64,000 bases of DNA from Halobacterium hubeiense (GTDB lineage Archaea; Halobacteriota; Halobacteria; Halobacteriales; Halobacteriaceae). The stretch covers positions 124,001 through 188,000 of the forward strand of contig NZ_LN831302.1 in the NCBI RefSeq assembly GCF_001488575.1, read 5' to 3'. The first letter of the stretch is position 1, and each line of letters begins with the position of its first letter. The notes under the pieces were generated by a model. It had not been told where the DNA came from. It did not search any database and saw only the letters and a program-made list of their open reading frames with translations. The position numbers were made by a program, and so were the translations under genes. Positions 43,224 to 59,538 of this stretch are shown here, piece by piece.

Positions 43224-43322
43224 TATGGAACCATACAGACTGAACGAGTAACTCCCTTGCGGTAGCCCGTTCAAATCGGATAACATAAAGTCATAACTTT
43301 GCTCGTGCCATCCGGACACTCA

Positions 43323-44585
43323 ATGAGTGACTGGGAACACATCATACTCCTTTCTGCCGACGCACTCCGAGCTGACCATCTCTCTTGTTATGGATATCAT
43401 CGAAACACATCGCCGGAGATTGACGAGTTAGCAGCTGACAGTATCCAGTTCTCTAATGCGTATAGTGCGAGCTCTCATACGCGCGAAGCAGTCCCGTCGT
43501 TGCTTACCGGCCGCTATCCGGAAAATGCCGTAGACGAGAACTATCACTTAGCTGCGAAGCCCATCTCCTCGATTGCTTCCCAAGCTGGCTTCGAGACAGC
43601 TGGCTTCCACTCGAACCCCTTCCTATCACGCTCCTACGGTTTCGGTCGGGGATTCGATGAGTTCGACGATGATCTTCATCTCGGGCAGCACAAGTTGGTT
43701 GCGCTGGCGCAACGAGCTATCGACAAGCTTCGAAACCGGCACTATGCTCGCGCCGACGAAATCAACAAACGCGCGCTCAATTGGATTGACTCTCTGAACG
43801 AAGGGGAGTCATTCTTCCTCTGGAACCACTATATGGACACACACGGGCCGTACGAGCCCCCGGGCGAATATGGGACTGTATTTCGCGAAGAACGTGTCTC
43901 CGATAGTGAGGCGCAGGCACTATACCAGCGTGCGATAGACGATCCGCAATCCATCACCGAAGGCGAACGACAACTGCTCGTTGACTATTACGACGGCGAG
44001 ATTCGATATAACGACGAGAAAATCGGGTCGTTCCTCGATGCACTCGCGGAGCGAGGGCTCTTGGAGGATTCGCTCGTCATATTCACAGCAGACCACGGGG
44101 ACGCGTTCGGTGAACGTGGCTACTATGAGCACCCGCGGTTTCTACATGAAGAACTAACACATGTCCCACTACTGGTGCGGTCGCCGGGTGGCACGACAGG
44201 AGAAGTCACGACTCCGGTAAGTACGCTCGACATCACTGCAACGATCGAGGCCGAAATCAGTCCGAAGGAGTGGTCTACTGGCAAATCTCTGCTCACTATC
44301 TCCGAGGGTGACCGAGCTGTCTTCTCTCAAGCACAAGGAGAGAACGATGAAAGCCACCTCCGTCGGTACGGAGTACAAACCAAACAGAACACCTGTTTCT
44401 GTGAATACAACCGTGAAACAGGTGACATTGACTTTGGCGAATGTACTGACCGTTCGCTCCGTGATGAATTACGAACTCATATTGATGAAGATCGCGGCCA
44501 TGGTGAAGATGAAGACGGAATAGAATCGGAAGATGTCGACCCTGAGATAGAGCGACGACTAGACGCCTTGGGGTACAAGGACTAG
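43323..44585 (+). CDS. Sulfatase / alkaline-phosphatase-superfamily enzyme
   Basis: 420 residues. The metal-binding start IILLSADALRADHLSCYGYHRNTSPEIDELA, the nucleophile region ASSHTREAVPSLLTGRYPE, the His segment YMDTHGPYEPP and the second metal site VIFTADHGDAFGERGYYEHP are typical. The usual C/S-x-P-x-R box reads SSHTREAVPS, so the nucleophile is probably the Thr or Ser and the protein may act as a phospho- or phosphoglycerol-type hydrolase or transferase rather than a sulfatase. Island context suggests modification of surface glycans. No signal peptide is seen. Confidence 0.85.
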   Translation: MSDWEHIILLSADALRADHLSCYGYHRNTSPEIDELAADSIQFSNAYSASSHTREAVPSLLTGRYPENAVDENYHLAAKPISSIASQAGFETAGFHSNPFLSRSYGFGRGFDEFDDDLHLGQHKLVALAQRAIDKLRNRHYARADEINKRALNWIDSLNEGESFFLWNHYMDTHGPYEPPGEYGTVFREERVSDSEAQALYQRAIDDPQSITEGERQLLVDYYDGEIRYNDEKIGSFLDALAERGLLEDSLVIFTADHGDAFGERGYYEHPRFLHEELTHVPLLVRSPGGTTGEVTTPVSTLDITATIEAEISPKEWSTGKSLLTISEGDRAVFSQAQGENDESHLRRYGVQTKQNTCFCEYNRETGDIDFGECTDRSLRDELRTHIDEDRGHGEDEDGIESEDVDPEIERRLDALGYKD

Positions 44586-44594
44586 TAGCTACTA

Positions 44595-45671
44595 ATGGTG
44601 GAACGAATATCAGCCGTCGTCGTTCAAGACCGGCTCAATACATACGGTGGTGGTGAACGTGTTGTTCACCAACTCACAGAAACGATACCAGGAAACGTTG
44701 ACATTGTTACGGGCGAATACGAACCGGAATCGACGTACGACTTCGATGACTCTTCCGTCACAGAGATACGGTCGAATTCGTTCGGTTCGTTTATCGCGTC
44801 ACGATTGACCATCGACTGGAACGAGTACGACGTGGCGATCCTAAGCGGGAATCGTCCACAGTTTATACAATGGCTGAATCTCCCAATTCCGGTTATCAGG
44901 TACTGTCATTCCCCGACGCGCACATTCTGGTCGTTACGAGATCGTTCTTTCCGAGAATCTAATTTGGCTGAGAAGGTTGTTCGAGCGGGAATTGCACCGG
45001 CCTATCGGAGAATCGATACAGTCCTAAACCGAAGACATAGTCACATTGTCGCGAATAGTCACAATATTCGATCCCAGGTAGACCGATTCTATGGCTTAGA
45101 TGCGACAGTAGCGTATCCACCAGTTGATGTTGAGAGCTTCGAATACGCGGCACACGAGGATTACTGGTTGAGCGTGAACAGGTTAGTCCCGAAGAAACGA
45201 GTTGATTTGCAGATTGATGCGTTCGCTGGGACTGACGAGAACCTCGTAATAGTTGGATCAGTAGACGAGCACTTCGACGAGTTTGGGTCCCAAATGAAGT
45301 CGCGAATCGACTCGACGCCGAACGTGGAACTCGAAGAATTTGCTACTGAAGACCACCTTCGTTCTCTCTACTCGCGCGCGAAGGGCGTCGTATACACTCC
45401 GTATTACGAGGACTTCGGTATCGTTCCTGTCGAAGCGATGGCTAGCGGAAAGCCCGTAGTAGCGGTAGCTGAGGGTGGACCAATTGAGACGGTGCACGAC
45501 GAACGAACCGGATGGCACGTTTCGCCGGACGTAGTAGAGATACGGGAACGCGTCACGTCGGACTTCGACCCTGACGAATTCCGAGCGCAGTGCCTTGAGC
45601 GCGTTCGCCGGTTCGATAGACGAGAATTCAAGGACACTATTAACGAGGTCATCTCCGAATACGCTGTGTGA
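44595..45671 (+). CDS. GT4 family glycosyltransferase
   Basis: 358 residues. The N-terminal loop LNTYGGGERVVHQL and the middle IVANSHNIRSQVDRFYGLDATVAYPPVD are typical of GT4 mannosyl-type transferases (WbaZ-like). The donor site is VVYTPYYEDFGIVPVEAMASGKPVVA. RYCHSPTRTFW is another group feature. It starts 9 bases after the sulfatase-like gene, and both are intermediate in GC content. It probably adds a hexose to a lipid-linked glycan. Confidence 0.9.
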   Translation: MVERISAVVVQDRLNTYGGGERVVHQLTETIPGNVDIVTGEYEPESTYDFDDSSVTEIRSNSFGSFIASRLTIDWNEYDVAILSGNRPQFIQWLNLPIPVIRYCHSPTRTFWSLRDRSFRESNLAEKVVRAGIAPAYRRIDTVLNRRHSHIVANSHNIRSQVDRFYGLDATVAYPPVDVESFEYAAHEDYWLSVNRLVPKKRVDLQIDAFAGTDENLVIVGSVDEHFDEFGSQMKSRIDSTPNVELEEFATEDHLRSLYSRAKGVVYTPYYEDFGIVPVEAMASGKPVVAVAEGGPIETVHDERTGWHVSPDVVEIRERVTSDFDPDEFRAQCLERVRRFDRREFKDTINEVISEYAV

Positions 45672-45707
45672 TGGGGTCCCTCGGAGACGACCGGGTTTAG
45701 CGTTCAG

Positions 45708-47330
45708 CTACGCCGTCTCGCTACTGTTGCAGGCTGTAACCTCATACAGCGCCATGTCCGCGTTCTCATACTCAACTTCGAGGTACGGTTGGTCGAAGTG
45801 CTGCGGGACGCGGACGTTCTCAGGATTATTCCAGTACTGCCCGAAGTAATCACGCTTGTCGACGAAAACCCAGTCAACGCCCAACTCACGTAACTGTTGA
45901 CAGTTGGCTGGATCTTCCCACCATGCCCACGCTTTCGCTTGCGTCTGTCTTTCTCTGTCGGGAATCGTGAAGTCCCGCGGGTACGTCCGCAATACTTCAC
46001 CGTCGTGATAGTAGTTAACCAACTCGTTAGTTAACGGCGGCGCTAGTATTTTCCCATCAACATTTATCTTCTCCATGCCATCGGTGAGTTCGGAGTCAGG
46101 ATGAACAACGTATCCTGCACCACCGAACGGTGCTACTTGATACGCTAACATTGGAATAGAGAGAACGACGGCGATGGCGAGGAGGACTCCTCGAATATCT
46201 AGATCATCAAGAATGCGTGGCAGCTCCAGCCGCTGCTTTGCTGTAGATACCACGACTTCGAACCCTACTCCAAAAACCATCGCGAACGGAATGAATAGGT
46301 GCCTGATGGCCCGCTCTGTTCCTTGAGGCTGGACGAAATGCGTAAATAATATCATCGAGAGCTGTGCGAGCACCCATGCGAGAAGGATGCGTAGGGCAAT
46401 ATTCCCTCTCTCACGTGGCTTGGTCAAACCATATATGAATCCGATACTCCCCGTCAGAATTACAAATGGATTCAACATCGACAATTGTGAAACGAGGTTG
46501 ATGAATGTGGAGTCGGAAAACTGCTCTATTGACCCAGAATTGCCGTTATTTGATTGAGGGGGTGGACTACTCCCTGTAGATGATGGAGGGTCGGAACTAG
46601 TAGGCGACGACGTACCCTGGTCGAGGGATAGGAATTCTAAGACCCGATCTGTTATTGAACCTAGGAGACCGACTCCACGCTCGAACAGATACTGACCGTA
46701 GTTTTGCCACATTAACCCGATATTGAGAACGATGGCTGGTGCATACAATATGACGCGAATATCAACTAGGAAAAATGCGAAACCGAGGAGTGCGATTACC
46801 TCCAGGAAGACTAGGTGATGGAACCCGCCGATGAGTAATAGTAGGATAGATCCAGTCAGTAAATGAGTTAGATCCTCAGTGCGCTTCCACTGGAACAATG
46901 TAAGTAAAAATAGCGGGAGGAAGACATAGGCGCTAATGTAGCTATTTATCGTCCAACTATACGTCGCCTTGAATGGAATAGTAGACATTACGACTAGTGC
47001 AAAAGCAGCGTATAACCCCGCTTTCTGCCCAAAGAATTCCGCAGTAACGTAGCAGACTGTAGTAATTCCGAGAGCGGCAACGAATATTGTCGCAATACTA
47101 AAAAACCAAAGTGGGTCAACGGGTAGGTGGAAAGCTAGGCTACCGAGCTGGTAGAATAACTCCGGATTCAAGCTCTGTATGTATGGTCGTCCAGCTGCAA
47201 TGTCCTTCATTACCGACACACGCTGGAAGAAGTCCGGACGAAGAGGAAAGCCGTTGACAACCTGGAATAGGAGGCGATAGGAGAGTGTTACGAGAAATAC
47301 TATGACGAGATTTTTTCGGGACACACTCAT
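45708..47330 (-). CDS. GT-C-like polytopic membrane protein
   Basis: 540 residues, about 12 helices. The first external loop has NGFPLRPDFFQRVSVMKDIAAGRPYIQS with an acidic residue, in the style of GT-C transferases. An unusual low-complexity Ser/Pro/Asn loop (SSPTSSDPPSSTGSSPPP) lies near residues 240 to 265. The C-terminal 120 residues form a soluble external part (GKILAPPLTNELVNYYHDGEVLRT, DWVFVDKRDYFGQYW). It overlaps nothing and abuts the flippase gene (stop/start adjacent), implying one operon. AT-rich. Confidence 0.7.
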   Translation of the reverse strand: MSVSRKNLVIVFLVTLSYRLLFQVVNGFPLRPDFFQRVSVMKDIAAGRPYIQSLNPELFYQLGSLAFHLPVDPLWFFSIATIFVAALGITTVCYVTAEFFGQKAGLYAAFALVVMSTIPFKATYSWTINSYISAYVFLPLFLLTLFQWKRTEDLTHLLTGSILLLLIGGFHHLVFLEVIALLGFAFFLVDIRVILYAPAIVLNIGLMWQNYGQYLFERGVGLLGSITDRVLEFLSLDQGTSSPTSSDPPSSTGSSPPPQSNNGNSGSIEQFSDSTFINLVSQLSMLNPFVILTGSIGFIYGLTKPRERGNIALRILLAWVLAQLSMILFTHFVQPQGTERAIRHLFIPFAMVFGVGFEVVVSTAKQRLELPRILDDLDIRGVLLAIAVVLSIPMLAYQVAPFGGAGYVVHPDSELTDGMEKINVDGKILAPPLTNELVNYYHDGEVLRTYPRDFTIPDRERQTQAKAWAWWEDPANCQQLRELGVDWVFVDKRDYFGQYWNNPENVRVPQHFDQPYLEVEYENADMALYEVTACNSSETA

Positions 47331-48542
47331 CTACGCCCGTCCCTGCGCCGTGAGTTTATAGCTACCTATTCCGACGAGAATGAGATAATGGCCAATGGCC
47401 AGAATCCAGATGATTTGGGACAACGTAGACGCTATTGCCGTCGACAAATAAAGCACAGAGACGACTACAAAGAGAATAGTACCTTGTCGGGGATTCCCGG
47501 AGCCAAATGAATGAATTCCGAAAAGCGCAATTGCAGGGTAAGGGAGCATCATCAGCATGTACTCTGGTAGAAGCCCAACCATAGACGAATACTTCTGCCC
47601 GAAGAGAGTTACAATCCAGAAGTCGGAAAAAAGAATCCCTATGGCGGCTCCACCGATGCCAAGTACAGAACAGAGTATTACCGATTCAATAATAGAATCC
47701 TCACTCTCTGTCGTCGAGTCCGGGAACATTACTCGACTCACCGCTCGGGTAATGATTGTATACGCCTTCCCAAACACGGTTAGAACTCCCCAGAAACCGA
47801 CAATTGCGCCCGTGAACCTCGCAGAAACTATCAACATGTCGAAGGTTGTCGGGATGAGCAGGAGACTGTTGATGCCGATAGAGTTTGGAAGGTCGGAGAA
47901 GGTTCGCTTGATACCCGAAAGAGTGGGCTGGAGTTTCGGGCGTGGTGAGTTCGGTAGTATTGCGATTGTACTGACTAGGCTGGCGAGAGGGAACAACAGG
48001 ACCGCGATAAGAAGCGATACATCCCCCTGGAGAAAGATTATCCCTGAGACGGCCAACAGAAATACTGCTTCAAATATCTCTGAAACTGCAACCTTTCGAA
48101 AGTTCCTGGCCTTCTGATGGAACCCAAGTATTGGCTGATATATTGATAGGATTGGCACTCTCATTAAGATTGGAACGAGAAGAACGATGGCCGTTAGTTC
48201 GAGGTGCGTTAACAATATTGGCTGGAGTAGGAGTACGGTACACGCGAAGCCAGCGGCGAGGATCAAACACGCGACAGTAAGGTCAATGAGATTGACCTCT
48301 TCAAGAATTTTTGTGGCAGTATAGCCGATTGCTCCGACCAGAAACCCCATAATCATTAGTATGGATGCAACTGTCGAAAATTGCCCATACTGTGTCGGGC
48401 TTAATGTCCTCCCGAGTACGATACGAAGTAGGTAGAGCCCGGCGCCGCCAAGTACTGATGCGGTTAGAATTAATATATTATCCTGTATAAATTCCAAGCT
48501 TGGCCATAACGAGGATATACCTTGTTCCGATATCCTGCCCAT
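47331..48542 (-). CDS. Wzx-type oligosaccharide flippase
   Basis: 403 residues, about 12 helices, no large loops. The N-terminal GGAGLYLLRIVLGRTLSPTQYGQFSTVASILMI is the usual start of Wzx/polysaccharide-transport proteins of the MOP superfamily. It should flip a lipid-linked glycan across the membrane, as AglR does in Haloferax. It is slightly shorter than typical (about 480), lacking the last helices. It is translated directly before the GT-C-like gene. AT-rich. Confidence 0.85.
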   Translation of the reverse strand: MGRISEQGISSLWPSLEFIQDNILILTASVLGGAGLYLLRIVLGRTLSPTQYGQFSTVASILMIMGFLVGAIGYTATKILEEVNLIDLTVACLILAAGFACTVLLLQPILLTHLELTAIVLLVPILMRVPILSIYQPILGFHQKARNFRKVAVSEIFEAVFLLAVSGIIFLQGDVSLLIAVLLFPLASLVSTIAILPNSPRPKLQPTLSGIKRTFSDLPNSIGINSLLLIPTTFDMLIVSARFTGAIVGFWGVLTVFGKAYTIITRAVSRVMFPDSTTESEDSIIESVILCSVLGIGGAAIGILFSDFWIVTLFGQKYSSMVGLLPEYMLMMLPYPAIALFGIHSFGSGNPRQGTILFVVVSVLYLSTAIASTLSQIIWILAIGHYLILVGIGSYKLTAQGRA

Positions 48543-48582
48543 ATTATCGAATTCGATTATCCATGTCTACGATTAGTTAGAG

Positions 48583-49836
48583 TTATCTCTCAATTAGAAT
48601 ACCGGCGAAGAACGCGCCGAACATCGTCTGCAAGCCGAGCACGATGGCGGTGAACGCGACGATATCACCCGTAATCGAGGGAAGCGTCGTAAACCCGCTG
48701 GCGGCCCACTGATAGAGCAGGCCGAGCGCAGTCAGCGACCCGAACGCGAACAGGCCGAGGCCGAGGAGGACGCCGCGTTCGAGCGTGAAGTGCTCGTTGA
48801 GCCACTGCGTTATCACCCCATCAGGCCGCTGGATGGGGTCGCTGGCGACGTCCGTGAGGAACCCGAAGCTCCCAACTTGGTAGCCGGCTAGCGTCAGCAG
48901 ACTGCCCGCGATGAGGGAATGGACGCCAATGCTTTGCCCCATCACTTCGACGTTGAACACGCTAAGCGCCATTACGACGACGCCGACCGCGCCCATGATG
49001 GAGCCGGGGAGCGAGAACAAGTATCCCGGCGCGTTCACGAGCATGAATTTGACGTGGCGCCACCCGTCGTGGAAACTCTCTAATTTTGCCTCGCCCTCAC
49101 GCTCATGGTACGTAATCGGGACCTCCTCAATGGTGAGGTCTTTCGCGCCAGCGTCCATGATCATCTCGCTGGCGAACTCCATCCCATCCGACCCCAACTC
49201 TAGCGCTTCTAGCGCTTCTTGGGAGAACACGCGGAACCCGCTGTGGGCGTCACTAACTCCTGCGTCGTAGAACGCGTTGAGGAACTTCGTCAGGAGCGGG
49301 TTGCCGATGTGTTCGTGCAGCGGCGGCATCGCCCCATCCTTGATTTCGCCCTCTAGCCGGCTGCCCATCACAATGTCGGCATCACCGTACGCGACGAGTT
49401 CGAGGAGCTTCGGAATCTCCTCGAAGTCGTAGGTTGTGTCAGCGTCGCCCATAACGATGTAGCTGCCGCGGGCGTGGTCGAACGCGTACCGGTACGCATA
49501 CCCGTAGCCTGGCTTGTCAGGTTCGACGACGATCGCACCCATCGACTCAGCGATGTCCGGGGTGCGATCTGTTGAGGCGTCACTGATGATGATCTCGCCG
49601 GTGACTCCCAGCTCTTCGAGTGCGTTCGTCGCGCGCTCGATGCACTCGCGGATCCCTTCCTCCTCGTTCATCGTCGGCATGACGATGCTGATCGCCGGCG
49701 TCGACTCACTGTCTGCGGGCAACAGCTGGCCTGCCTGGGGCGTGGTCATATCGAGTGACTCCGAGAGCGTCGAGTTGACCGGCTCGCCCTCATGCCCTCC
49801 ATCGGGTGGTTTCGAAGACGTAGTTTCAGACGACAT
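48583..49836 (-). CDS. GT2 family glycosyltransferase (DPM1/AglJ-like) with membrane tail
   Basis: 417 residues. A GT-A domain (about 50 to 280) has IVMPTMNEEEGIRECIE, the D-x-D site in GDADTTYDF and GSRLEGEIKDGAMPPLHEHIGNPLLTKFLNAFY. Then come four helices (about 290 to 405). This is the layout of the haloarchaeal transferases that charge dolichol phosphate, such as AglJ. It probably starts glycan assembly on the lipid carrier. ATG at 49836 (MSSETTSSKPP) is used because the conserved domain begins well downstream; 38 more codons upstream are possible. GC content returns to the core level here. Confidence 0.9.
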   Translation of the reverse strand: MSSETTSSKPPDGGHEGEPVNSTLSESLDMTTPQAGQLLPADSESTPAISIVMPTMNEEEGIRECIERATNALEELGVTGEIIISDASTDRTPDIAESMGAIVVEPDKPGYGYAYRYAFDHARGSYIVMGDADTTYDFEEIPKLLELVAYGDADIVMGSRLEGEIKDGAMPPLHEHIGNPLLTKFLNAFYDAGVSDAHSGFRVFSQEALEALELGSDGMEFASEMIMDAGAKDLTIEEVPITYHEREGEAKLESFHDGWRHVKFMLVNAPGYLFSLPGSIMGAVGVVVMALSVFNVEVMGQSIGVHSLIAGSLLTLAGYQVGSFGFLTDVASDPIQRPDGVITQWLNEHFTLERGVLLGLGLFAFGSLTALGLLYQWAASGFTTLPSITGDIVAFTAIVLGLQTMFGAFFAGILIER

Positions 49837-50019
49837 ATATTTGGTGGCCCATTCGGTTGTTACGTAGCTATCTGACGTTACAACATTATAAAGACTGTGA
49901 GGCGGGTTCGTGACCTGTGACAGGCAGCGAACGTTCAAAAGCCTCACCACAGCAGGTATTTTGAACGTGGCTGCCAGACTACCTAGTTCGACCCCGTAGT
50001 TCAGAAAGATACGCTGTAG

Positions 50020-50300
50020 TCACGCGGACGCCCGGCGCACCACACTCAAATCCCCCGTCAACAGCCCAAGGAAAACCTCAGGTCCAAGGTCGGCAATCGT
50101 GTGTGTGTGTGTGAGATAGCCGATGCCAAACGCTACCCACGCCTGGGGACGATCGAACCGACGACTGAGCCACGCCACGCCAGCGATAAGAACGAAGGCA
50201 GTGAACAGCGAGTGTGCGAACAACCGTCCTGACGGCAACACTGTGACGGTCCACGCAAGTGGTTTATCGATGAGGTCTGGGAGCTGGCTACCGATTACCC
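50020..50300 (-). pseudogene. DUF457/YdjM-like membrane hydrolase fragment
   Basis: The frame IGSQLPDLIDKPLAW, LPSGRLFAHSLFTAFVLIAG and VAFGIGYLTHTHTIADLG resembles the haloarchaeal LexA-binding/YdjM membrane-bound metal-dependent hydrolases (DLIDKP, SGRxxAHS, GYLxHxxxD). N-terminal helices are missing, and the C-terminal part is altered after a (GT)7 tract at 50099 to 50112. It is joined to a HicA-like fragment in opposite orientation at about 50295. Confidence 0.65.
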
Positions 50301-50567
50301 AAGGAACTCGTTGCAGCACTCACAGAGTTGGGGTACCAGCCGGTCGACCGGGCCGGCAGCCATCTCAAACTTCGATATGTGCATCCGGAGACCGACGAGA
50401 TTCGAAATGTGACGGTTCCGATGGGCAAAGAGATCAGCGGCGATACACTCCGCAATATTGCCAGCCAGTGTGGCGCGGACGATTTCCAAGCGTGGTGCAA
50501 CTGGATCGACGACCTTCTGTCCTGCTTCAGTTGCAACAGTGGTGTGTCTCGTCACCTGAACCATTGA
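50295..50567 (+). pseudogene. HicA-like mRNA interferase lacking its start
   Basis: LPKELVAALTELGYQPVDRA then GSHLKLRYVHPETDEIRNVT and GDTLRNIASQCGADDFQAWC match HicA toxins (dsRBD-like fold, catalytic His in GSH). No ATG precedes it in frame; the frame comes straight from the broken hydrolase DNA. No HicB antitoxin is adjacent. An element end follows immediately at 50568. Confidence 0.7.
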
Positions 50568-50600
50568 CATCCTCCTGCGCCTGAAGGCGCGGGTATTCTT
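50565..50600. repeat. IS200-type element end (hairpin)
   Basis: TGACATCCTCCTGCGCC-TGAA-GGCGCGGG is a recurring haloarchaeal IS200/IS605 end hairpin. It sits exactly between the two broken toxin genes. Confidence 0.55.
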
Positions 50601-50601
50601 C

Positions 50602-50856
50602 TTGATTTCCCTTCCATTCCACGGACAAGAGTACGTTACAGCGGCCGTGACAACGACCGCCAGGCCGCCAGCGGTCGAGCTCACCAGCGACCGAATCGAG
50701 AAGGGCGGCTTGCCGAGGATGTCGTATATCTCACCGTGGACAGTTGTGACACTGAAGGACTCGATGATTAGCCGCCAGCCCGCGAAGGTCACTGACGCGA
50801 CGGTAGACACGGTTTGGAACGAACTGAACGGCTATCTTCAGACGTGGAGAAATTGA
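50602..50856 (+). pseudogene. PemK/MazF-type toxin, C-terminal part
   Basis: From LPFHGQEYVTAAVTTTARP on through SPWTVVTLKDSMISRQPAKV the sequence matches the C-terminal two thirds of haloarchaeal PemK/MazF toxins. The N-terminal 35 or so residues (first strand and the active-site Arg region) are missing, cut off by the element end at 50600. Together with the N-terminal piece at 35913 it shows two separate decayed copies of this toxin family. Confidence 0.7.
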
Positions 50857-50861
50857 CACCA

Positions 50862-50892
50862 TTCCACTCCTGAAGGGGTGGGCTTCCGCTCG
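50862..50892. repeat. Solo TnpB-element end
   Basis: CCACTCCTGAAGGGGTGGGC followed by TTCCGC is nearly identical to the 5' (tnpB-start) ends of the two intact 1,394-bp elements. No tnpB is present beside it, so it is a solo end left after loss. Confidence 0.65.
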
Positions 50893-50930
50893 CTACGTGT
50901 CAAAGCATGCTGGGAGCGCGCTTCGGTCAG

Positions 50931-53045
50931 CTACCCGTTTCCGGAGTCAGTCCGACCGGTCTCACTACGTTCTTCGTCGGCGCCGGGCAGCGACGACCGT
51001 TCCTGCTCAGTCGGGTCGAAGTCAATCACTTGCTTCTCCTTCGGCATCGCCTCCACTGTAATCCCACGCCACTCCCCGTCAACACCAACTAACGCCTCCG
51101 CAAATCCAGCATCCTCGTTCCCCGGCACTGCATCCTGCACGAACCGCATCTGGGCGTAGTTCAACCCGAACTCCTCAGCCCACTGTTCGTCCATCCCGTC
51201 CAACCGGTGGAACTGCTTGACCGCACACTGATCCAGAATCGCCTCACTCTCAGCGTGCTCGAAGAACTCATCAACCGTCTGCGTCACCAACCGAATCGAG
51301 AGGTCGTGGTGGCGATGATGGCGAAACACCGTCTCGAGGAACGCGAGACTCGCGGCGTCCTGCATGAGATAGCGGGCCTCGTCGATGTAGAACACGACCT
51401 CCTGCTCTGAGACTTTCGCGCGCTCGTACACCAGCGAGATCAACAACTGCATCGTTAACGCCGTCGAGCTATCCACGCTCCCCTCCTGCTGGGCGAGATC
51501 AAGATAGATCACTTTCTCGTTGCGAATGTCGAACGCCGAGGGCTGCCCGAGATTCGAATGCCGCCCACTCTCTTCGAACGGCCGGAGCTGGTCGAGCAGC
51601 CACGTCGCATCCCCAGCGAGCTTCCCAGCCTCCTCATCAGTACGCACAACAAATTCCTCAGGCTCCTCGACCATCTCCTCGAGCACGTCCATCACGTCCC
51701 GGATCGTCGGGCTGGGATTGTCGTGGGTCGAAATATCATCAGTAATCCCACGTTCGTTGTACGCTCGCGTGAGCGCGAGCTCCAGCGTCGTCCGCCGATC
51801 GCCAAGCGAAACCCCGCGTAACGCGAAGAAGTTAGTAAGAAAGCTCATCGCGTCATCGAGCTTCTCGTTGAACGGACTGGCGTCCTCGCCCATCGCTCGC
51901 TGGACGCGCGCCGGCGTTTCCCGCAGCTCCAGGGGATTCAACCCGAGCGTCCCACCGACCGTGATGCGTTTCGCGTCCAACGCCTCAGCAACGCCTGCCC
52001 AGTCGTTCAACGGCTCGAGAATCACGCCAATCCGATCACTGCTCTGTTCGATCGAGCGGATGAAGTTCTGCTTGGAGCTGAACGACTTCCCCGAACCTGG
52101 GTCCCCAATTGTGAACATCGCGTAGCCGTTCTCCCTGCTGAACGGGTCGATGACGACCGGACTGCGCGTGTCCTTGTGGATCCCGAACTCCACCCCGCCT
52201 TCCTCGAGAATCGTCGCCTGCTGTGGAGACGCCAACAACGCACCCACGGCACCCCCGAGGGCAATCGACGCCCGCCCGAATTCGTTGCTCCCGATGGGGG
52301 CGGCCGACTGGACGGCGAGGTCCTGCCGACAGATCGCGGTCTTCGGTGTGAGGTTCGCAGGGTCGTCCCGGAGCGCACTCTTCACCGTCTGGACGGCATC
52401 CCGCAGCTCGTCTTTGTCGTCGGCGCGCACCGTCACAAAGAGGCTCTGGTCGAACACCTGGGCGCCGTTTTCGACGGCCGTGTACGTCGCCGCCGCCTCG
52501 TTGGCGCGCTCCTGCAAGTACGCGCCCCGCACGCTCTGCTCGAGATCCGCATCCACCTGGAGGTCGTCCGCGATATCCTGCAACTCGTCGCGGGCACGCT
52601 CCTGATTCCGCGGCGTGACGTGCGCCGTTACGTCGAACTGCACGTCGGTGAGTTCGAACAGCTCGCTGAGATACCCGTCACTCGGATAATCTGGATAATC
52701 AGCGATGTACAGCGTCGACGTCCACTGTTCGCCAACGCGGGCGGCACGCGTCTCCCACTCGATCGCATCTGGGGCCGTCACGGTCTGCTGGGACTCCGCC
52801 ACGTCATCCAGCAGCTCTCCCTCCACGCGTCCCTTCTCAAGCGTCGCCTCGTCGAGGACAGCCGCGAACGCGACCTGCTCCTCGTCGTCCTCGGTGTACC
52901 ACCGCCAGAGCCCGACTCCGACGAGGACGGCTCCCACGGCAAGGGCTGCGTACAGGACAGCGCCCGCGAGCGACGCCGGGTCAGGTAGCCACTGGCCGAG
53001 CTGGCGATCGAGCCCGCTGGCCTGAAAAAGAGCATTATGTATCAT
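50931..53045 (-). CDS. VirB4-like type IV secretion ATPase
   Basis: 704 residues. An N-terminal hydrophobic segment (about 25 to 48) is followed by a VirB4 N-like domain (about 60 to 290). The ATPase core has Walker A GDPGSGKSFSSKQ (about 314 to 326) and Walker B VVFYIDEARYLM (about 550 to 561), typical of the HerA/FtsK group. A late AVKQFHRLD segment is also usual in VirB4. It would power DNA or protein transfer through the membrane complex encoded upstream. Its start overlaps the upstream gene by 11 bases. A homologous fragment at 35546 shows a second, lost copy. Confidence 0.85.
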   Translation of the reverse strand: MIHNALFQASGLDRQLGQWLPDPASLAGAVLYAALAVGAVLVGVGLWRWYTEDDEEQVAFAAVLDEATLEKGRVEGELLDDVAESQQTVTAPDAIEWETRAARVGEQWTSTLYIADYPDYPSDGYLSELFELTDVQFDVTAHVTPRNQERARDELQDIADDLQVDADLEQSVRGAYLQERANEAAATYTAVENGAQVFDQSLFVTVRADDKDELRDAVQTVKSALRDDPANLTPKTAICRQDLAVQSAAPIGSNEFGRASIALGGAVGALLASPQQATILEEGGVEFGIHKDTRSPVVIDPFSRENGYAMFTIGDPGSGKSFSSKQNFIRSIEQSSDRIGVILEPLNDWAGVAEALDAKRITVGGTLGLNPLELRETPARVQRAMGEDASPFNEKLDDAMSFLTNFFALRGVSLGDRRTTLELALTRAYNERGITDDISTHDNPSPTIRDVMDVLEEMVEEPEEFVVRTDEEAGKLAGDATWLLDQLRPFEESGRHSNLGQPSAFDIRNEKVIYLDLAQQEGSVDSSTALTMQLLISLVYERAKVSEQEVVFYIDEARYLMQDAASLAFLETVFRHHRHHDLSIRLVTQTVDEFFEHAESEAILDQCAVKQFHRLDGMDEQWAEEFGLNYAQMRFVQDAVPGNEDAGFAEALVGVDGEWRGITVEAMPKEKQVIDFDPTEQERSSLPGADEERSETGRTDSGNG

Positions 53046-54150
53046 GGTCGCCCTCCCGACGCGAGCGGCCCATGATTGGGTGGTCGCGGACGACGCGCCC
53101 CGCGTCGCCGTAGTCGTGCTCGCGGCCGTTCCAGAACGCCAGATTCAGGACGAACAGCTCGACCGTGCTGAGTCGCCGCGCGGACCACCCGGAGGCCTGC
53201 TGGATGAACTCCGCGCGAACGTCGTTGATTCGCTCATCGAGTTTCTCGAACATCTTGGCGCGACGCTCAACCTCGGTCAGATCCTCACGGCGCGTCACGA
53301 ACGGCCGGAACAGGAACCCAACAATCGGGAACTGCGTCAGCTTCTCCGCTGGCGTCGCTTCGTCGCGGTAGCGGTCGTAGATCTCCAGTGGCGCGACTTC
53401 GACGCCGATGTAGTAGTGCAGCTGCTGGCTGCCCCGGTCGCGCATCTCCTGCGGGCGGGTCTCCCGGTATTCCTCGAGGAGTGCCCGGAAGATTGGGTTC
53501 TGTTTGACGTCCTCGTCGTTCAGCCGGTCTTCGATGGTCTCGGTGATCTGTTCCACGGGAAACGACCGGGTCGTCGCGTGGAACTTCAGGGGCCAGTCTA
53601 GCTCCCGGTTGGCGAACGCTGCGCCCGCTTCCTGGAGCTGCGCCCAGTCGTCTGACATCGCGAAATCCATGTTCCCCGGCTGCACCTCGACGAACGCCGC
53701 CATCGCACCATCCTGGCGCTGGATCGCACCTGCGCCTGGCCACGCGCGTTCGACGTTCGTGAGGTCTTGCGTGCGTTCGTCGGGTTTGAACGGCGTGTAG
53801 TTCGCGAGCCCGCCCTCGTTACGTGTCGTTTCAGTGGCTCCATCCTCGTCTGCGGGCGCGTTGAACGTGACTCGCGGTCGCTTGGCGTATCGGTAGACGT
53901 CTTTGGTCCACGTCCACGCGTTCAGGTGATCCGGTGACACGTAGAGGACCGCGACGCCAAACCCGAAGCCGCCAGCAACGAGCGGGAGCGCCAGCGACTC
54001 GACACCCGTGAATCCCGCAATCAGTAGACCAACGATGGGGAAGGCGATGAGGACGCCAACGTCGCCCTCGTCGATGTTGAGGACGGGGATGCGGCCTTCC
54101 TCGCCGAACTGGTCCATAATGCGCCGTGCCGCCGCGTTCTGGTCGACCAT
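53035..54150 (-). CDS. PrgI/VirB4-N-like secretion component
   Basis: 371 residues. Two membrane helices (about 30 to 47 and 52 to 70, DVGVLIAFPIVGLLIAGF and ALPLVAGGFGFGVAVLY) resemble PrgI-type (VirB3) subunits. A soluble domain (about 140 to 345) resembles the N-terminal part of VirB4/TraC proteins (AFVEVQPGNMDFAMSDDWAQLQEAG, LKFHATTRSFPVEQI, QQLHYYIGVEVAP). It has no Walker motif. It would be the membrane partner of the VirB4 ATPase encoded next. It overlaps the genes on both sides (11 bases and TGATG). Confidence 0.75.
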   Translation of the reverse strand: MVDQNAAARRIMDQFGEEGRIPVLNIDEGDVGVLIAFPIVGLLIAGFTGVESLALPLVAGGFGFGVAVLYVSPDHLNAWTWTKDVYRYAKRPRVTFNAPADEDGATETTRNEGGLANYTPFKPDERTQDLTNVERAWPGAGAIQRQDGAMAAFVEVQPGNMDFAMSDDWAQLQEAGAAFANRELDWPLKFHATTRSFPVEQITETIEDRLNDEDVKQNPIFRALLEEYRETRPQEMRDRGSQQLHYYIGVEVAPLEIYDRYRDEATPAEKLTQFPIVGFLFRPFVTRREDLTEVERRAKMFEKLDERINDVRAEFIQQASGWSARRLSTVELFVLNLAFWNGREHDYGDAGRVVRDHPIMGRSRREGDHDT

Positions 54151-55259
54151 CAGTGGATCCCCCGGTCGAAGTCCATCCCATGGTCGTCACTCGACGCCGT
54201 CTCCTCACTGGGGTCGTTTTCGGTCCGCCGATACGACGGGGATGAATCGCCATCATCGGTGTGTCCGCCACGCGCTGCGGCTTTCTGCGCGACGGCGTGG
54301 CCAGCCGCCGCTTTCGGCCCCCAACGTGCGGCTGTCGTTGCGAGGCCAGCCCCACCAATGTACGCGCCAGCAGCGACGCCACCGATGAGGGCGGCGCTTT
54401 TCGTCGCCCCGCCAAGCACTTTTGCCGTGAGTGGCGTCGCGAACGCGAACGTCTTCCACGTGACGTAGAGTGCGATTAGCGGGAGGGAAGCAGCAACCAA
54501 GTATCGGAGAAACGGGCTACTTGGTGAGAGCGAGTTCTGTGCGGAAAGAAGACTGTAGCCTTTGAATACGACTGCAGCAGGTAGTGGAAGGATCGCCAGA
54601 GGCACGAATCGCTTACTAAATCCTATCGCGATATCAGAAAGAACTGGGACGTTACCGTACGCGACCGCGAATGAGATAGGCATCCCGTATACGTAGACGA
54701 GGAGCAGGACCTCGCGGATATAGTAGAGAGCTTCGAGTGCCCACATGGAAATTCCGCCAATAAGAGCGAAAACCAAGGACAGTCCGGGATTCATCACAGA
54801 GACATTTAGGAGGTTTAGCATCGTGTCACCGAGAGAGTTCAGACTGGGTATCAACGCAATTGTGAACCCGTCAATGAGGTAGAGGGCGAGAATACTAACC
54901 CAATACCAGGTAATTATCAGAACAGCCCCGACCCAGGCCGTCTTCTTCGCCCGTCGAGCTTCATACGCGCTTCCAATATTGAAGATTCGAATAGTGTGTC
55001 TGGCTTGAACGCACAGCACTAGAATGAGAAGCGAGATTAGCATGATCTCGCCACCAACAAGTGCATCTTGGATAGCCGGCCATGGATCATTCGTAGGGGT
55101 GCCAAAGACAAACGCACCATCGGTTTCCGGCGTGGGAGTCCCAAACATCTCCTCCGCGAGCGATTCATAGCCAGAACGAAGGCCGTTGAGGAAGAGCTCG
55201 ATAATCCAGTCAACGACGTCTTTGAACCCCTCCAAAACGACATCAATTAGGTCAACCAT
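54150..55259 (-). CDS. VirB6/TrbL-like polytopic membrane protein
   Basis: 369 residues with about eight membrane helices between 60 and 300, followed by a polar, low-complexity cytosolic tail (KAAARGGHTDDGDSSPSYRRTEND). The N-terminal 50 residues are amphipathic. The length and helix layout fit VirB6/TrbL channel subunits of type IV secretion systems, but primary sequence identity is weak, so this is mainly by position between the PrgI-like and lipoprotein genes. Confidence 0.65.
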   Translation of the reverse strand: MVDLIDVVLEGFKDVVDWIIELFLNGLRSGYESLAEEMFGTPTPETDGAFVFGTPTNDPWPAIQDALVGGEIMLISLLILVLCVQARHTIRIFNIGSAYEARRAKKTAWVGAVLIITWYWVSILALYLIDGFTIALIPSLNSLGDTMLNLLNVSVMNPGLSLVFALIGGISMWALEALYYIREVLLLVYVYGMPISFAVAYGNVPVLSDIAIGFSKRFVPLAILPLPAAVVFKGYSLLSAQNSLSPSSPFLRYLVAASLPLIALYVTWKTFAFATPLTAKVLGGATKSAALIGGVAAGAYIGGAGLATTAARWGPKAAAGHAVAQKAAARGGHTDDGDSSPSYRRTENDPSEETASSDDHGMDFDRGIH

Positions 55260-55261
55260 CG

Positions 55262-56107
55262 TTACACCTCACTGATAGTGATGGCACAGTCTTCCTGCTC
55301 ATTCGACGCTGAATACCGAATATTGTAAGATTTCGAAACGCGGTCTCCGCCGACCCGCGTTTCGAGAATCAGGTCGAACTTGCCGGTCTGTTCCTCGTTA
55401 GTACAGGAAGTTCCACCACCGGGAACGAAGGCAAATGGCGAGCGCGAGCTGTAAATCGTGAGCTGCTCGTCTGCGGGAAGCAAGACTTCACCAACTTCCG
55501 AGTCTGTTTCTGAATCGTATATCCCACTAACGTCCTCAGCACCCGCGTAGTTTGTCCCTTGTTCGTCGGAGGGATACGGAACATCGCCGATGAACAGTAG
55601 TTTTGTGATTGCCTCTGGCCCAGTTCCTTGATTGCTAACGGTGATGAACGCCTCCTCACTGATTTCGTCTTCCGCTCCGGTCCACATCTCCTCAGGCTGA
55701 TTTCTCCCAATACCCATCTCCACAATTTCCAGAGTTGGTTCGATTGGGATCGTCGTCTCGACAATAGTTTCATCTTCACGAAGTGCAACGATGTCGTACT
55801 CGCCTGGCGGGTAGGTCGTGCCAATCTCGAACGAGACCTGCTGGACGCCAGCCGCGACCGATTGCTGCGCGAAGAGTTCGCCGTTCGGCTGGATGAGATT
55901 GAGGCGGTCGACGTCCGCCTCCGAGACGAGAGCAACAATAACTGTGGTCCCATCCACGGCGACTCGCTGGAGCGGGCCACCAGCAGCAGTCGTGCCATCG
56001 CTGGCAGGCGAATTCTGGGAGAGGCAGCCCGCGAGACTCGCGACTGCAGCACTGGCAACTGTTTGGAGGGCGGTGCGGCGATCGATACGTTGGACGTTTC
56101 TGGGCAT
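55262..56107 (-). CDS. Tat-exported lipoprotein of the secretion-like operon
   Basis: 281 residues. The signal IDRRTALQTVASAAVASLAGC has the twin arginine and a lipobox (LAGC), so the protein is anchored by a lipid outside the cell. Two beta-rich domains follow: a CARDB-like one (about 45 to 125) and a second (about 130 to 275) with SNQGTGPEAITKLLF and FAFVPGGGTSCTNEEQTGKFDLIL. It could be the external assembly factor, in the place of VirB7 or VirB9. Spacing to both neighbours is 2 to 3 bases. Confidence 0.7.
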   Translation of the reverse strand: MPRNVQRIDRRTALQTVASAAVASLAGCLSQNSPASDGTTAAGGPLQRVAVDGTTVIVALVSEADVDRLNLIQPNGELFAQQSVAAGVQQVSFEIGTTYPPGEYDIVALREDETIVETTIPIEPTLEIVEMGIGRNQPEEMWTGAEDEISEEAFITVSNQGTGPEAITKLLFIGDVPYPSDEQGTNYAGAEDVSGIYDSETDSEVGEVLLPADEQLTIYSSRSPFAFVPGGGTSCTNEEQTGKFDLILETRVGGDRVSKSYNIRYSASNEQEDCAITISEV

Positions 56108-56110
56108 GGG

Positions 56111-57826
56111 TTACTGGAAGCGGGTGTTGAAGCCGAGCAGTCGGAGCAGTCGCGTGCCGGCGTAGAACACGACGGCGAACGGGAGTAGCCGCCAGCCGAC
56201 GCCGACAAGCAGCGCAAACCAGCCATCGATCGAGCCGAGTGGATGCCACCGTGCCGTCGCCGTTGCGGGGGCGTACGCGGGGTCGTGGCTGAGCCACGAG
56301 CCAGGCTGATAGCGCGCCGTGTACACGCCGGGCTCGTCGACGGTGACGGTCGCAACCCCAGAGCGATTCGTTTCGATGCGCTGGCCGTTGATGGTGATTG
56401 TGCCGGTTCGCGTCTCGCCACCAATCAGATGCAGGCGGTCACGGTCGGCCAACTGAATTGGCGCACCCGTTCGCGCATCGCGGAGTTCGACGCGGAGCAC
56501 GGCCGCCGTTTGGTTCTGCCGCAGGACGGCAACGGAGAGCGCACTCCGGCGCAGCTGTCGGTCGGCGCCATCCCCCAACGCGACAGTCTCGTTGACGCCG
56601 CGTACGATTCCGGTGACGTGGAGTGACTCCCGCTCAATACGATCGGTGCGAGCAGCGAGCCCGTACGTCGCCTGATAGGATTGGTTCACGACGTCGACGG
56701 AGACGTTCTCCCCGATCGTCCCGGCGGGCGTTGCTTGGTCGCCACCCCACGTCGAGAGCAACTCGGGGCCATCCTGGACTGGCTCGACGCGCGGCCCGAT
56801 CCGGGACGGATAGGCGTGGACGCCCACCGGGAGCGCGGGTGAGTCAACCACCGACCGCCCCGTCGCGGTCGCAGTGACGAGCGTATCCCAGTCCGGGTTC
56901 CGGGCGGTGTAGAACCGCCAGATGCCACGCACTCGTGCGCCGCGTTCGGGGAGCGTAAAGCCCTGCCAGGGCCGCGTCTGGAAGACTGCGACGCCAGCAT
57001 CCCCGTTCGGATACGACGCTGAGTGAGCGGTCGCCGACAGATTGTACACCGCCACGGGGAGCGTGTCCGACACGTTCACGGACTCCTCGTGATAGGTGAC
57101 GTCGACGCTGGTCGTGTTGCCGCGATCGATACGCGTCGTCTGCCGCAAGCGAACGTCGATCTCGGCGGTGAACGTGAGCGTCGCACTGCCATTCCGCCCC
57201 ATCTGGTAGGCAAGAATGGGCGTGTGGGCGCCGTCCCGTTCGACGAGCGACTCACCGTCGGCCTGCAGCTCGACGGTATCGATCTCGTGGCTGACCAGCG
57301 ACCAGTCGACAGTCGTCGATCCCGAGGCGTCTCCGGGAGGGACGCGAACGCGGTAATCGACGAACCCACGCAGCGTGCCGTTCGGCGCAATATACAGTGG
57401 TGTCGTCCCAGCTGCGAGGTGGGCGCGCGTCGACGGCTGCACCGCAAATATCGTCGCGTGGGCGTCCGCGATGAACGCGCCATCTGTGAGCTTTGCGTGC
57501 GGTGGGTGGATGGACGTGTTCGGGCCGCCACCGTCCAAATCCTGGAAGTCGTTGCGCGTCCACGTCGCGGCCGTCGAGGGCGGCCGCGTGAACGTGACGT
57601 CCGTCCCGTTGGCGACCTGCTGGACGGCCGTCCGATTCTCGCCGTACCGCTCCCGGTACGCCGACTGGTTGATGTAGGTGTCCGGGTCGCGCGACCACAG
57701 CGTTGCCGACTCGTTCTCCGTGAGTCCATTATCCTCGGTGCCGGGCCGTGGCGGGTCGGCGGCGACGACGCTGGTGATGCCGCCGGCGACGACCAGCGCA
57801 GCCACGACGACGCGCGCTCGCTGCAT
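56111..57826 (-). CDS. Large exported surface protein with C-terminal anchor
   Basis: 571 residues. A signal peptide (MQRARVVVAALVVAGGITSVVAA) precedes a large external beta-rich part with many N-x-S/T sites. Distinct segments include TLWSRDPDTYINQSAYRERY and VNQSYQATYGLAARTDRIE. An Ig-like domain near 480 to 525 ends TVTVDEPGVYTARYQPGSW. A C-terminal hydrophobic helix (about 535 to 560) follows. No family is recognised. It probably builds the outer part of the apparatus or mediates cell contact. ATG at 57826 is preferred over 57856 to avoid a longer pre-signal arm. Confidence 0.6.
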   Translation of the reverse strand: MQRARVVVAALVVAGGITSVVAADPPRPGTEDNGLTENESATLWSRDPDTYINQSAYRERYGENRTAVQQVANGTDVTFTRPPSTAATWTRNDFQDLDGGGPNTSIHPPHAKLTDGAFIADAHATIFAVQPSTRAHLAAGTTPLYIAPNGTLRGFVDYRVRVPPGDASGSTTVDWSLVSHEIDTVELQADGESLVERDGAHTPILAYQMGRNGSATLTFTAEIDVRLRQTTRIDRGNTTSVDVTYHEESVNVSDTLPVAVYNLSATAHSASYPNGDAGVAVFQTRPWQGFTLPERGARVRGIWRFYTARNPDWDTLVTATATGRSVVDSPALPVGVHAYPSRIGPRVEPVQDGPELLSTWGGDQATPAGTIGENVSVDVVNQSYQATYGLAARTDRIERESLHVTGIVRGVNETVALGDGADRQLRRSALSVAVLRQNQTAAVLRVELRDARTGAPIQLADRDRLHLIGGETRTGTITINGQRIETNRSGVATVTVDEPGVYTARYQPGSWLSHDPAYAPATATARWHPLGSIDGWFALLVGVGWRLLPFAVVFYAGTRLLRLLGFNTRFQ

Positions 57827-57831
57827 GACGG

Positions 57832-58239
57832 CTACCAGGGGACGAGGTCGACGCACGTCGCTAGTGGCAGGTTCATCATTGAGCCGGCGACCGTGTACAG
57901 CGGGCCGAGGACGACGAGGACGACCGCGGACTTCATCGCGGAGCGCTTGTGCACTTTCAACCCCTTCTTGCGGTCGGGGCTGAGCGTGAACATCTCCATG
58001 AGGGAGTCGGCCTGCCAGACGACGGCAAGCCCGACGATGCCCAGCGCGGTGGTGAGCTGGAAGAACCCCTCGATCATACTCGGGAGGTTGTCCGCGCTAC
58101 AGACTGCGCTGCTCTGGGCGGCCGCTGGCTGCACCAGAAGCAAACTGGCGAGGACGATGGTGGTGGCGGCCGTGCGCGGGAGATGGCTGGCTAATGGTGC
58201 GTCTGGACTAGTGGACTCGGAGGGCGTGTGGTGAGCCAT
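57832..58239 (-). CDS. VirB2/TrbC-like small membrane protein
   Basis: 135 residues. A long signal-like N terminus (about 20 to 42, TAATTIVLASLLLVQPAAAQS) is followed by two helices (about 58 to 75 and 100 to 125) joined by a short basic loop (SPDRKKGLKVHKRSAMK). Two Cys flank the helices (VCSADN and TCVDL). This is the layout of VirB2-type pilin subunits: cleaved leader, two helices, basic loop inside. It is the first gene of the six-gene operon. The assignment is by architecture only. Confidence 0.55.
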   Translation of the reverse strand: MAHHTPSESTSPDAPLASHLPRTAATTIVLASLLLVQPAAAQSSAVCSADNLPSMIEGFFQLTTALGIVGLAVVWQADSLMEMFTLSPDRKKGLKVHKRSAMKSAVVLVVLGPLYTVAGSMMNLPLATCVDLVPW

Positions 58240-58543
58240 GGTGCGGTGGTGGCGTGCTAGCTGGGGGACGGTACCGAGAGCGCGACTGTATGTTATATGT
58301 CAACACATAGTAGGAATGTAATTGGGGAGTGTGTATATATTTTCTCCTAGTATACAGAAAATAACCTAGAACCGACCAGTCAGTCTCTAAGGTAGTTGTA
58401 GCAACCTCCCTTCACAGCAGGTCCACCGCCGCCCGTCCGTCGACCTGACAGGCAGCGAACGCACCGACAATATGTTATATTGTTGGCTGGTCTGAGCGGG
58501 CGGCTTAACAAGAATTATACAATATGGCGGTTTCATTCGGAAT
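58240..58543. promoter_or_regulatory. Divergent control region of the secretion-like operon and PadR regulator
   Basis: AT-rich for this region. It contains the perfect inverted repeat ACAATAT-GTT-ATATTGT (58467 to 58483), and the 9-mer ATGTTATAT occurs again at 58290 to 58298. TATA-like boxes include GTGTATATATTTTC (58331 to 58344) and AATTATACAATATGG (58511 to 58525, about 25 bases before the PadR ATG). The repeat is the likely operator of the regulator at 58544, able to control both directions. No gene is seen inside. Confidence 0.6.
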
Positions 58544-58825
58544 ATGCACGATCTCACTGGCTTCCAGCGAGACTTGCTGTACGTAGTTGCTGGCCTCGAT
58601 GAGCCACACGGCCTCGCCGTCAAAGACGAACTCGAGGAGTACTACGAGTCCGAAATCCATCATGGACGCCTCTACCCCAACCTCGACACGCTCGTCGACA
58701 AGGGCCTCGTCGACAAAGGCCAGCTCGACCAGCGCACCAACTACTACACGCTCACGAGTCGTGGCAGTCGGGAAATCGCCGCGCGACGGGAATGGGAACA
58801 GCAGTACGTCGACCTCGAAGCGTAA
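58544..58825 (+). CDS. PadR-type regulator (phage phiH1 repressor-like)
   Basis: 93 residues. One winged HTH: HDLTGFQRDLLYVVAGLDEPHGLAVKDELEEYYESEIHHGRLYPNLDTLVDKGLVDK, then QLDQRTNYYTLTSRGSREI. This matches haloarchaeal PadR proteins related to the repressor of phage phiH. It should bind as a dimer to an inverted repeat; one stands 60 to 76 bases upstream. It is divergent from the secretion-like operon and so probably controls it. Confidence 0.88.
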   Translation: MHDLTGFQRDLLYVVAGLDEPHGLAVKDELEEYYESEIHHGRLYPNLDTLVDKGLVDKGQLDQRTNYYTLTSRGSREIAARREWEQQYVDLEA

Positions 58826-58859: not shown

Positions 58860-59162
58860 TTAGCCGTCCGGGGTGACCGGTCCTTTGTACGCGGAATGGA
58901 CGTGCTCGCCGTCCCGCCACTGCCAGTAGTAGTAGCGGTTGTCGTTGATCTCCTTGACCGTGATTGTCGCCTTCGCAGGGACTGCATCCGGCCGGTCGTC
59001 AGCTTCCGGTTCCGCAACCGTCTCCGTGGGTTCTTCGTCTCGATACGTCGCGAGTTCATCGGCGTACGTCGCAACCTGCCGTAGCTGTTCGGGCGAGCAC
59101 GCCTCCAACGAATCGACGAGCTCGTCGGGCAGTCCTGTCGGTGGCGTTGGTGGCTCTGGCAT
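58860..59162 (-). CDS. Small protein with basic YYYWQWR motif (DUF6788-like)
   Basis: 100 residues. A Pro-rich start (MPEPPTPPTGLPDELVD), a helix (CSPEQLRQVATYADELATYRD), an acidic linker, and a C-terminal beta part ITVKEINDNRYYYWQWRDGEHVHSAYKGPV. I associate this last motif with a mobile-element family (DUF6788) of unknown role; the number is from memory. It lies next to the SWIM-domain gene on the same strand (31-base gap). Confidence 0.6.
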   Translation of the reverse strand: MPEPPTPPTGLPDELVDSLEACSPEQLRQVATYADELATYRDEEPTETVAEPEADDRPDAVPAKATITVKEINDNRYYYWQWRDGEHVHSAYKGPVTPDG

Positions 59163-59193: not shown

Positions 59194-59538
59194 TCACGGG
59201 GAGCGTTGTTGGTTAAGGCTCGTGCGCGCCTGGTCCGGGAGTCGACCATCGGGCCGCGGAACCCGGCCAAGTTTGAGTTCGACGTCCACGCGCCGCAGAT
59301 GCTTACAGCCGCCCTCCGGTGTGCGATACTCCCAATCCGGGCACGTGCACGTCTCCTCGGCGACGTCGACTTCGTACCAGTTTCCGGACGCGGACTGCAC
59401 CTCGTAGCAGCCGCCTTTTTCAAGGAGGGAGACGGCCATCGCCTCCTCAAGCGCTCGCTTCGTCCGTGGTTCGAGATCCGCTCGTGCGATGCCCTGTGGA
59501 ACCGTTTCAGGAACCGCGCTGAGTTGCTGGGAAGACAT
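59194..59538 (-). CDS. SWIM zinc-finger protein
   Basis: 114 residues. The SWIM motif C-x-C-x(n)-C-x-H is visible as CTCPDWEYRTPEGGCKHLRRV (about 68 to 86). It is preceded by beta strands CYEVQSASGNWYEVDVAEE. SWIM fingers bind DNA or proteins, and stand-alone copies are common on haloarchaeal plasmids and integrative elements. ATG at 59538 begins MSSQQLSAVPETV. Confidence 0.85.
   Translation of the reverse strand: MSSQQLSAVPETVPQGIARADLEPRTKRALEEAMAVSLLEKGGCYEVQSASGNWYEVDVAEETCTCPDWEYRTPEGGCKHLRRVDVELKLGRVPRPDGRLPDQARTSLNQQRSP

Follow-up and report, generated by a model that had tools for sequence, protein, structure and literature searches.

A haloarchaeal type IV secretion operon with a distant coupling ATPase: the probable mating-pair formation module of an integrated conjugative-type element

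The whole 64,000-nucleotide stretch of DNA analysed here (the window) covers positions 124,001-188,000 of contig C1 in the 3.13 Mb genome of the haloarchaeon Halobacterium hubeiense, which is assembled in four contigs. Its minus strand carries six intact, tightly packed genes for the core of a type IV secretion system (T4SS), with a PadR gene divergent from them. The operon is best read as the mating-pair formation (MPF) module, comprising channel, pilus and cell contact, of a chromosome-integrated haloarchaeal mobile element of the conjugative type, and we put the probability of this reading at about 0.78. The evidence is the recurrence of the operon, a coupling ATPase linked to it at a distance and a backbone of DNA-handling genes in related elements. 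The six open reading frames (ORFs) and the PadR gene had been put forward in an earlier, sequence-only reading, and all were recovered at the same positions. The features are listed below in window coordinates, the operon in its order of transcription, with lengths in amino acids (aa); TM denotes transmembrane and Ig immunoglobulin.

57832..58239, minus strand: VirB2/TrbC-like pilin candidate, 135 aa (weak profile matches, architecture, alignment, position kept in 66 loci)
56111..57856, minus strand: surface protein, 581 aa (predicted structure; Ig-like beta-sandwich regions, C-terminal TM anchor)
55262..56107, minus strand: lipoprotein of the twin-arginine translocation (Tat) type, 281 aa (RR motif, LAGC lipobox, predicted structure)
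54150..55259, minus strand: TrbL/VirB6 inner-membrane channel, 369 aa (PF19590 TrbL_3)
53035..54150, minus strand: two-TM protein in the PrgI/VirB3 position, 371 aa (candidate by position; no family match)
50931..53045, minus strand: VirB4 ATPase, 704 aa (NCBIfam, PDB 4ag5, Walker motifs)
58544..58825, plus strand: PadR-family regulator, 93 aa (PF03551, E=4.4e-16)
58240..58543, no strand: intergenic promoter region common to the operon and PadR (TATA-like element, CTAGG repeats)
58860..59162, minus strand: protein of 100 aa adjoining PadR (87% identical to its counterpart at the corresponding position in the sister species)

The operon and its core proteins

The surface protein has 581 aa when read from a GTG codon and 571 aa from an internal ATG, evidently the start taken in the sequence-only reading, such that its gene either overlaps the VirB2-like gene by 25 bases or follows it after a gap of 5 bases. 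The other junctions are gaps of 3 and 2 bases and overlaps of 1 and 11 bases. A scan of genome contigs, following the earlier suggestion to look for the same gene order elsewhere, gave 72 haloarchaeal loci, almost all of which keep the six genes colinear and at conserved spacing. Given that a second species of the genus also has all the genes intact and under constraint, the operon is more than a chance arrangement.

By its sequence, the 704-aa product is certainly a VirB4 ATPase. It matches the solved VirB4 structure 4ag5 in the PDB (E=1.5e-11) and the NCBIfam CD1110-type VirB4 model (E=5.5e-38, which is below the model's own cut-off), and has a Walker A motif GDPGSGKS and a Walker B motif FYIDEA. 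The 369-aa product is with equal certainty, from its family match, a TrbL/VirB6 protein (PF19590 TrbL_3, E=3.1e-134, 448 bits against a cut-off of 23). Both identities had been proposed from the sequence, as had the type IV secretion character of the operon, and the two sets of matches bear them out.

In its features, the 135-aa protein resembles a VirB2/TrbC pilin. Its signal peptide ends near AAAQ, two hydrophobic helices flank a basic loop, and two cysteines, C47 and C129, are conserved. The earlier VirB2-like label therefore fits the architecture, but the family match is sub-threshold: the TrbC/VirB2 profile gives weak matches in 15 of the 22 family members, with a best E of 0.0038. Homology between the N-termini of VirB2 and VirB6, as reported for the crenarchaeal Ced system, gave no signal here in alignments that are shallow.

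In the 371-aa protein, a soluble domain follows two TM helices at the N-terminus. The protein is at least 73% identical in most relatives, and nothing in Pfam, NCBIfam, PHROGs or the PDB matches it. Its earlier designation as a PrgI/VirB4-N protein agrees with the two helices and with the position of the gene, but found neither a family match nor profile similarity to VirB4, and the label is a positional guess. A fusion of PrgI to the N-terminal domain of VirB4 was rejected on an hhalign probability of about 0, and is also weakened by the NCBIfam SCO6880 family, which matches VirB4 and not the 371-aa protein.

External proteins

The sequence-only reading had named two external proteins, a lipoprotein and an anchored surface protein, and predicted structures agree in building both of Ig-like beta-sandwiches. 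The AlphaFold2 model of the lipoprotein has a mean pLDDT of 80.2 and two Ig/Fn3/MG-like domains behind the RR motif and LAGC lipobox; the TAT motif match is weak. The second domain aligns with the archaeal type IV pilin 8fk7 with a Z score of 9.2 over 92 residues (root-mean-square deviation 2.4), a score near which many Ig-like folds fall. The surface protein, which has no sequence match in Pfam or the PDB, has a signal peptide, Ig-like beta-sandwiches at residues ~115-275 and 434-540, and the C-terminal TM anchor. Its model has a pLDDT of 58.5 overall and of 80-95 in residues 155-265, and its structure matches (invasin, MG domains) are generic. From these models, the two proteins are likely contact or scaffold parts outside the membrane. 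The surface protein was also considered as a fusexin; there is no PDB sequence match and no fusexin among the structure matches listed, which, with a model that is only moderately confident, is an absence of support and not a disproof.

A third, more divergent T4SS lies on the 350 kb contig C2 (L012 14400 to L013 7637), with homologs of VirB4 (39% identity), the 371-aa protein (28%) and the surface protein (34%). The surface protein is therefore part of the core beyond the window-type family. An apparent cas cluster, judged from its Cas2-like, Cas1-like and several effector-like ORFs, adjoins this T4SS at L012 3074-12432.

Selection and the promoter region

The orthologous locus L111, from a sister species of the same genus, also has the PadR gene, the 100-aa gene and a CopG-type gene. 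All six operon genes are intact in both loci, and the ratios of nonsynonymous to synonymous substitution rates (dN/dS) are 0.19 for VirB2, 0.18 for the surface protein, 0.30 for the lipoprotein, 0.11 for TrbL, 0.09 for the 371-aa protein, 0.08 for VirB4 and 0.08 for PadR. The lipoprotein, at 51% identity, is the fastest-evolving product of the operon, as would be predicted of a component in contact with other cells. The coupling ATPase described below is likewise intact in the sister species (dN/dS 0.10, 87% identity). The operon and the distant ATPase are thus both under purifying selection, and being intact and constrained in the sister species they are maintained together. PadR is 92% identical and at the same place. 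In the promoter region TTCTAGGTTATTTT..TG.ATACTAGGAGAAAATATATAC and TGTATAATTCTTGTTAA are common to the window and L111, and the CTAGG repeats and TATA-like element are kept.

Two layouts of the coupling ATPase

TrbL was found in 122 of 392 genomes and 51 of the 95 genera of the order, in a patchy distribution, and in a sample of 295 genomes from the phylum its matches are confined to this order. The suggestion that the machine is specific to archaea holds to the extent that TrbL is confined to haloarchaea in the sample searched. TrbL is also encoded on 85 haloarchaeal plasmid records, with a similar gene order in those inspected; PLSDB assigns MPF_T to three of these plasmids. A viral origin was rejected, given that IMG/VR has no TrbL relatives and phages give only distant VirB4 matches.

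On plasmids, the gene directly downstream of the operon usually encodes a VirD4/HerA-like coupling ATPase; a primase gene often comes next, and exonuclease VII genes often precede the operon. The same genome has a second operon, 61-85% similar, on the 158 kb contig C3. Upstream to downstream, it comprises a divergent PadR gene, a DUF1931 histone-fold-like gene, xseA, xseB, a 92-aa gene that also occurs in related loci, the six core genes (an insertion sequence follows the surface gene), a HerA/VirD4-like ATPase of 1274 aa, an archaeal-primase-like gene of 294 aa and a 507-aa protein. The xseA and xseB genes (on C3, L010 9712-10946) are a conserved part of the T4SS operon in most plasmid loci. 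With 350 aa, XseA is short, and its match to the Pfam catalytic model covers only the first half of that model. At L017 16406-20728 and in L053 and L094, the plasmid coupling ATPase belongs to a second class that has a different C-terminal domain; if a primase follows, it is of the NrS-1 polymerase type and not the small-subunit type.

None of the flanking genes of C3 (coupling ATPase, primase, 507-aa gene, xseAB) is found in the window. The sequence-only reading had noted that the window holds no coupling protein, which is true within it, but only because its edge cuts before the distant ATPase: the VirD4/HerA-type search of adjacent sequence that had been suggested finds one ~21 kb beyond the operon, at C1:203,121-206,759. 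A whole-genome profile search placed a coupling ATPase 8-49 kb from the operon on the same chromosome in 14 of 14 split chromosomal loci, upstream and divergent in 10 and downstream and co-directional in 4. For the operon-ATPase distances in 13 genomes, the combined chance under random placement is ~1e-23. The split-type ATPases form one clade with a support of 1.0 and only L117 added. Against TrwB_AAD_bind (PF10412), the coupling ATPase scores 25.3 bits on a fragment and 20.4 at full length, where the cut-off is 20.5. The haloarchaeal family therefore has two layouts, contiguous on plasmids and split on chromosomes. A stand-alone, domesticated Ced-like T4SS was favoured at first, from chromosomal loci that have no adjacent ATPase and whose six genes are all intact, with dN/dS far less than 1 (mostly 0.06-0.3), and was given up once a linked, diverged ATPase was found in every such genome.

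Directly downstream of virB4, window positions 50295-50910 hold a YdjM-like ORF, a HicA-like frame and a hairpin-ended stretch reminiscent of IS200/IS605, in the position that the coupling-ATPase gene takes in the plasmid form. Fragments of virB4 are found at window 35545-35821 (84% identical) and at C1:2285167-2285292 (67%). The latter adjoins an ArdC-like gene and a SWIM-domain gene that is 89% identical to window 59194-59538, and lies ~25 kb from another intact coupling ATPase at C1:2258591-2262178, which makes this a second, broken element.

Transposon-like and toxin-gene debris beside the operon, virB4 fragments elsewhere and the absence of the C3 flanking genes could also mean that a plasmid T4SS became trapped in the chromosome and that the operon is what is left of it, decaying and non-functional. 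This is quite improbable, given that the six ORFs are intact with dN/dS of 0.08-0.30 against the sister locus, that the coupling ATPase is conserved likewise and that the same layout recurs in 14 chromosomes.

Mobile-element backbone and proposed mechanism

Two pairs of close species (G478/G538 and G425/G246) have mainly a backbone in common, and most of the rest of the locus differs. The backbone consists of the T4SS core, the coupling ATPase, a protein of ~290 aa with sub-threshold matches of both the OB-fold and the single-stranded-DNA-binding (SSB)-like type, and an ArdC-like gene whose N-terminal domain passes its cut-off; in the Natrialbales an NrS-1-type primase after virB4 is added. 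Toxin-antitoxin-like and a few other genes are also common to the pairs. Anti-restriction genes of the ArdC-like kind are typically found in mobile elements, and a conjugated single strand requires ssDNA-binding, anti-restriction and priming functions on arrival. A backbone common to close species around different cargo thus points to a conjugative element that moves single-stranded DNA (ssDNA); the pattern has been shown for relatives only.

In such an element, VirB4 would power assembly and translocation, TrbL/VirB6 would be the inner-membrane passage, and the VirB2-like protein would form a pilus or pilus base. The lipoprotein and the anchored surface protein would act outside the membrane, where they probably cross or dock on the S-layer and touch the recipient, and PadR probably represses the operon from the common promoter. 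The VirD4/TrwB-HerA-like ATPase ~21 kb away would be the substrate motor. DNA would be moved as a single strand and converted in the recipient, as suggested by the recurrent OB-fold (SSB-like) protein, ArdC-like protein, primase and plasmid exonuclease VII.

The same DNA-handling genes (primase, OB-fold/SSB-like, ArdC-like, exonuclease VII) make it very improbable that this is a T4SS-derived contact or secretion apparatus that delivers proteins and not DNA. The external Ig-like proteins do resemble adhesin and stalk modules, and no relaxase is linked, but none of the genes seen beside the operon is a conserved candidate for an effector.

Several results weigh against the conjugative element. 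The core genes of the split loci do not form a single clade as their ATPases do, such that the histories of operon and ATPase are partly different and modules have been exchanged. The matches to OB-fold, ArdC and type IV coupling protein (T4CP) families score close to their curated cut-offs or fall short of them. There is no linked canonical relaxase: PF08751 was found in 0 of 18 genomes, with other MOB families not searched, and PF03432 matches weakly in 2 of the 18, away from the T4SS. No PF00589 match on C1 is nearer than ~0.8 Mb to the operon, with other recombinase families not searched, and there is no tRNA gene in C1:104-228 kb; excision and mobility of the window copy are therefore only putative. 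The stretch examined of the window island has no ArdC-like or SSB-like gene. This low-GC island extends ~100 kb around the operon, at about C1:148-248 kb, and no integrase, tRNA or empty site was found to mark the boundaries of an element.

The lack of a nearby integrase or tRNA would also suit a T4SS that the host has retained to exchange or take up DNA, in the manner of the crenarchaeal Ced and Ted systems. So would a locus that is chromosomal, intact and under purifying selection, and whose PadR gene and promoter are kept in the sister species. Such domestication is unlikely, in that close species share mainly the mobile-element backbone and differ in the rest, ArdC-like genes are typical of such elements and not of host machines, and the distribution across the order is patchy. 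Moreover, each of the 14 loci has a dedicated, linked coupling ATPase, and Ced and Ted are described without one (PMC9905601).

Towards its C-terminus, the coupling ATPase carries a winged-helix-like stretch, and this part has no family match; a residue pattern D...ExE, invariant in 10 of 10 aligned members, prompts the speculation that it might be a nuclease. It is doubtful, if conceivable, that conjugation throughout the haloarchaea moves ssDNA without any known relaxase, with the coupling ATPase itself preparing the DNA, helped on plasmids by exonuclease VII and primase. If true, this would be a mechanistically different start of conjugation.

Two further groups of genes belong to the low-GC island. 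Two tandem FtsZ/CetZ-like tubulin-family ORFs lie at its left edge (window 26295-28618), and glycosyltransferase, sulfatase-like and polyprenyl-sugar synthase-like ORFs at window 42084-49950 are probably a surface-glycan cluster.

Comparison with known systems

The way in which archaea manage conjugation without a recognisable relaxase is an open question (PMC3158045, PMC9905601, PMC12857230). The haloarchaeal family provides a defined, cultivable system, in which the six-gene core is joined by a coupling ATPase, in either of two layouts, and by an ssDNA-handling backbone. It is present in about a third of the sampled genomes of the order, including the genetically tractable Haloferax and Halobacterium, such that the relaxase question becomes directly testable. 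The 507-aa protein, the C-terminus of the coupling ATPase and exonuclease VII are candidates for the missing DNA-processing step. No description of the six-gene core, the external proteins or the split layout was found in the open-access literature, which leaves out most subscription journals.

Archaeal VirB4/T4CP loci without known relaxases were previously placed in the MPF_FATA group (Guglielmini et al. 2011, PMC3158045). The window family is like them in having VirB4 and T4CP homologs on archaeal plasmids and chromosomes with no recognisable relaxase, and differs in that a six-gene core, two Ig-like external proteins, a distant ATPase and an ssDNA backbone are delimited here. Integrated haloarchaeal elements that carry fsx1 also encode VirB4, HerA and TraG/VirD4-like ATPases (Moi et al. 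2022, PMC9259645). They are similarly large, but the window operon has no integrase near it, and HAP2/fusexin PF10699 has no match in the 18 genomes of the set, nor in the controls.

The self-transmissible Thermococcus plasmid pT33-3, as summarised in PMC12857230 (Catchpole et al. 2023), is likewise euryarchaeal, and its ATPases are similar to VirB4 and VirD4, with no known relaxase. By that description, the haloarchaeal core is set apart by the addition of TrbL_3, the VirB2-like pilin, the lipoprotein and the surface protein. The crenarchaeal Ced and Ted systems are described as domesticated T4SSs without VirD4 (PMC9905601), and resemble the haloarchaeal system in being archaeal, with VirB4 and VirB6 homologs, a VirB2 homolog (a candidate in the haloarchaeal operon) and no relaxase. 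Unlike Ced and Ted, the haloarchaeal system has a linked coupling ATPase of the VirD4 type and mobile-element genes.

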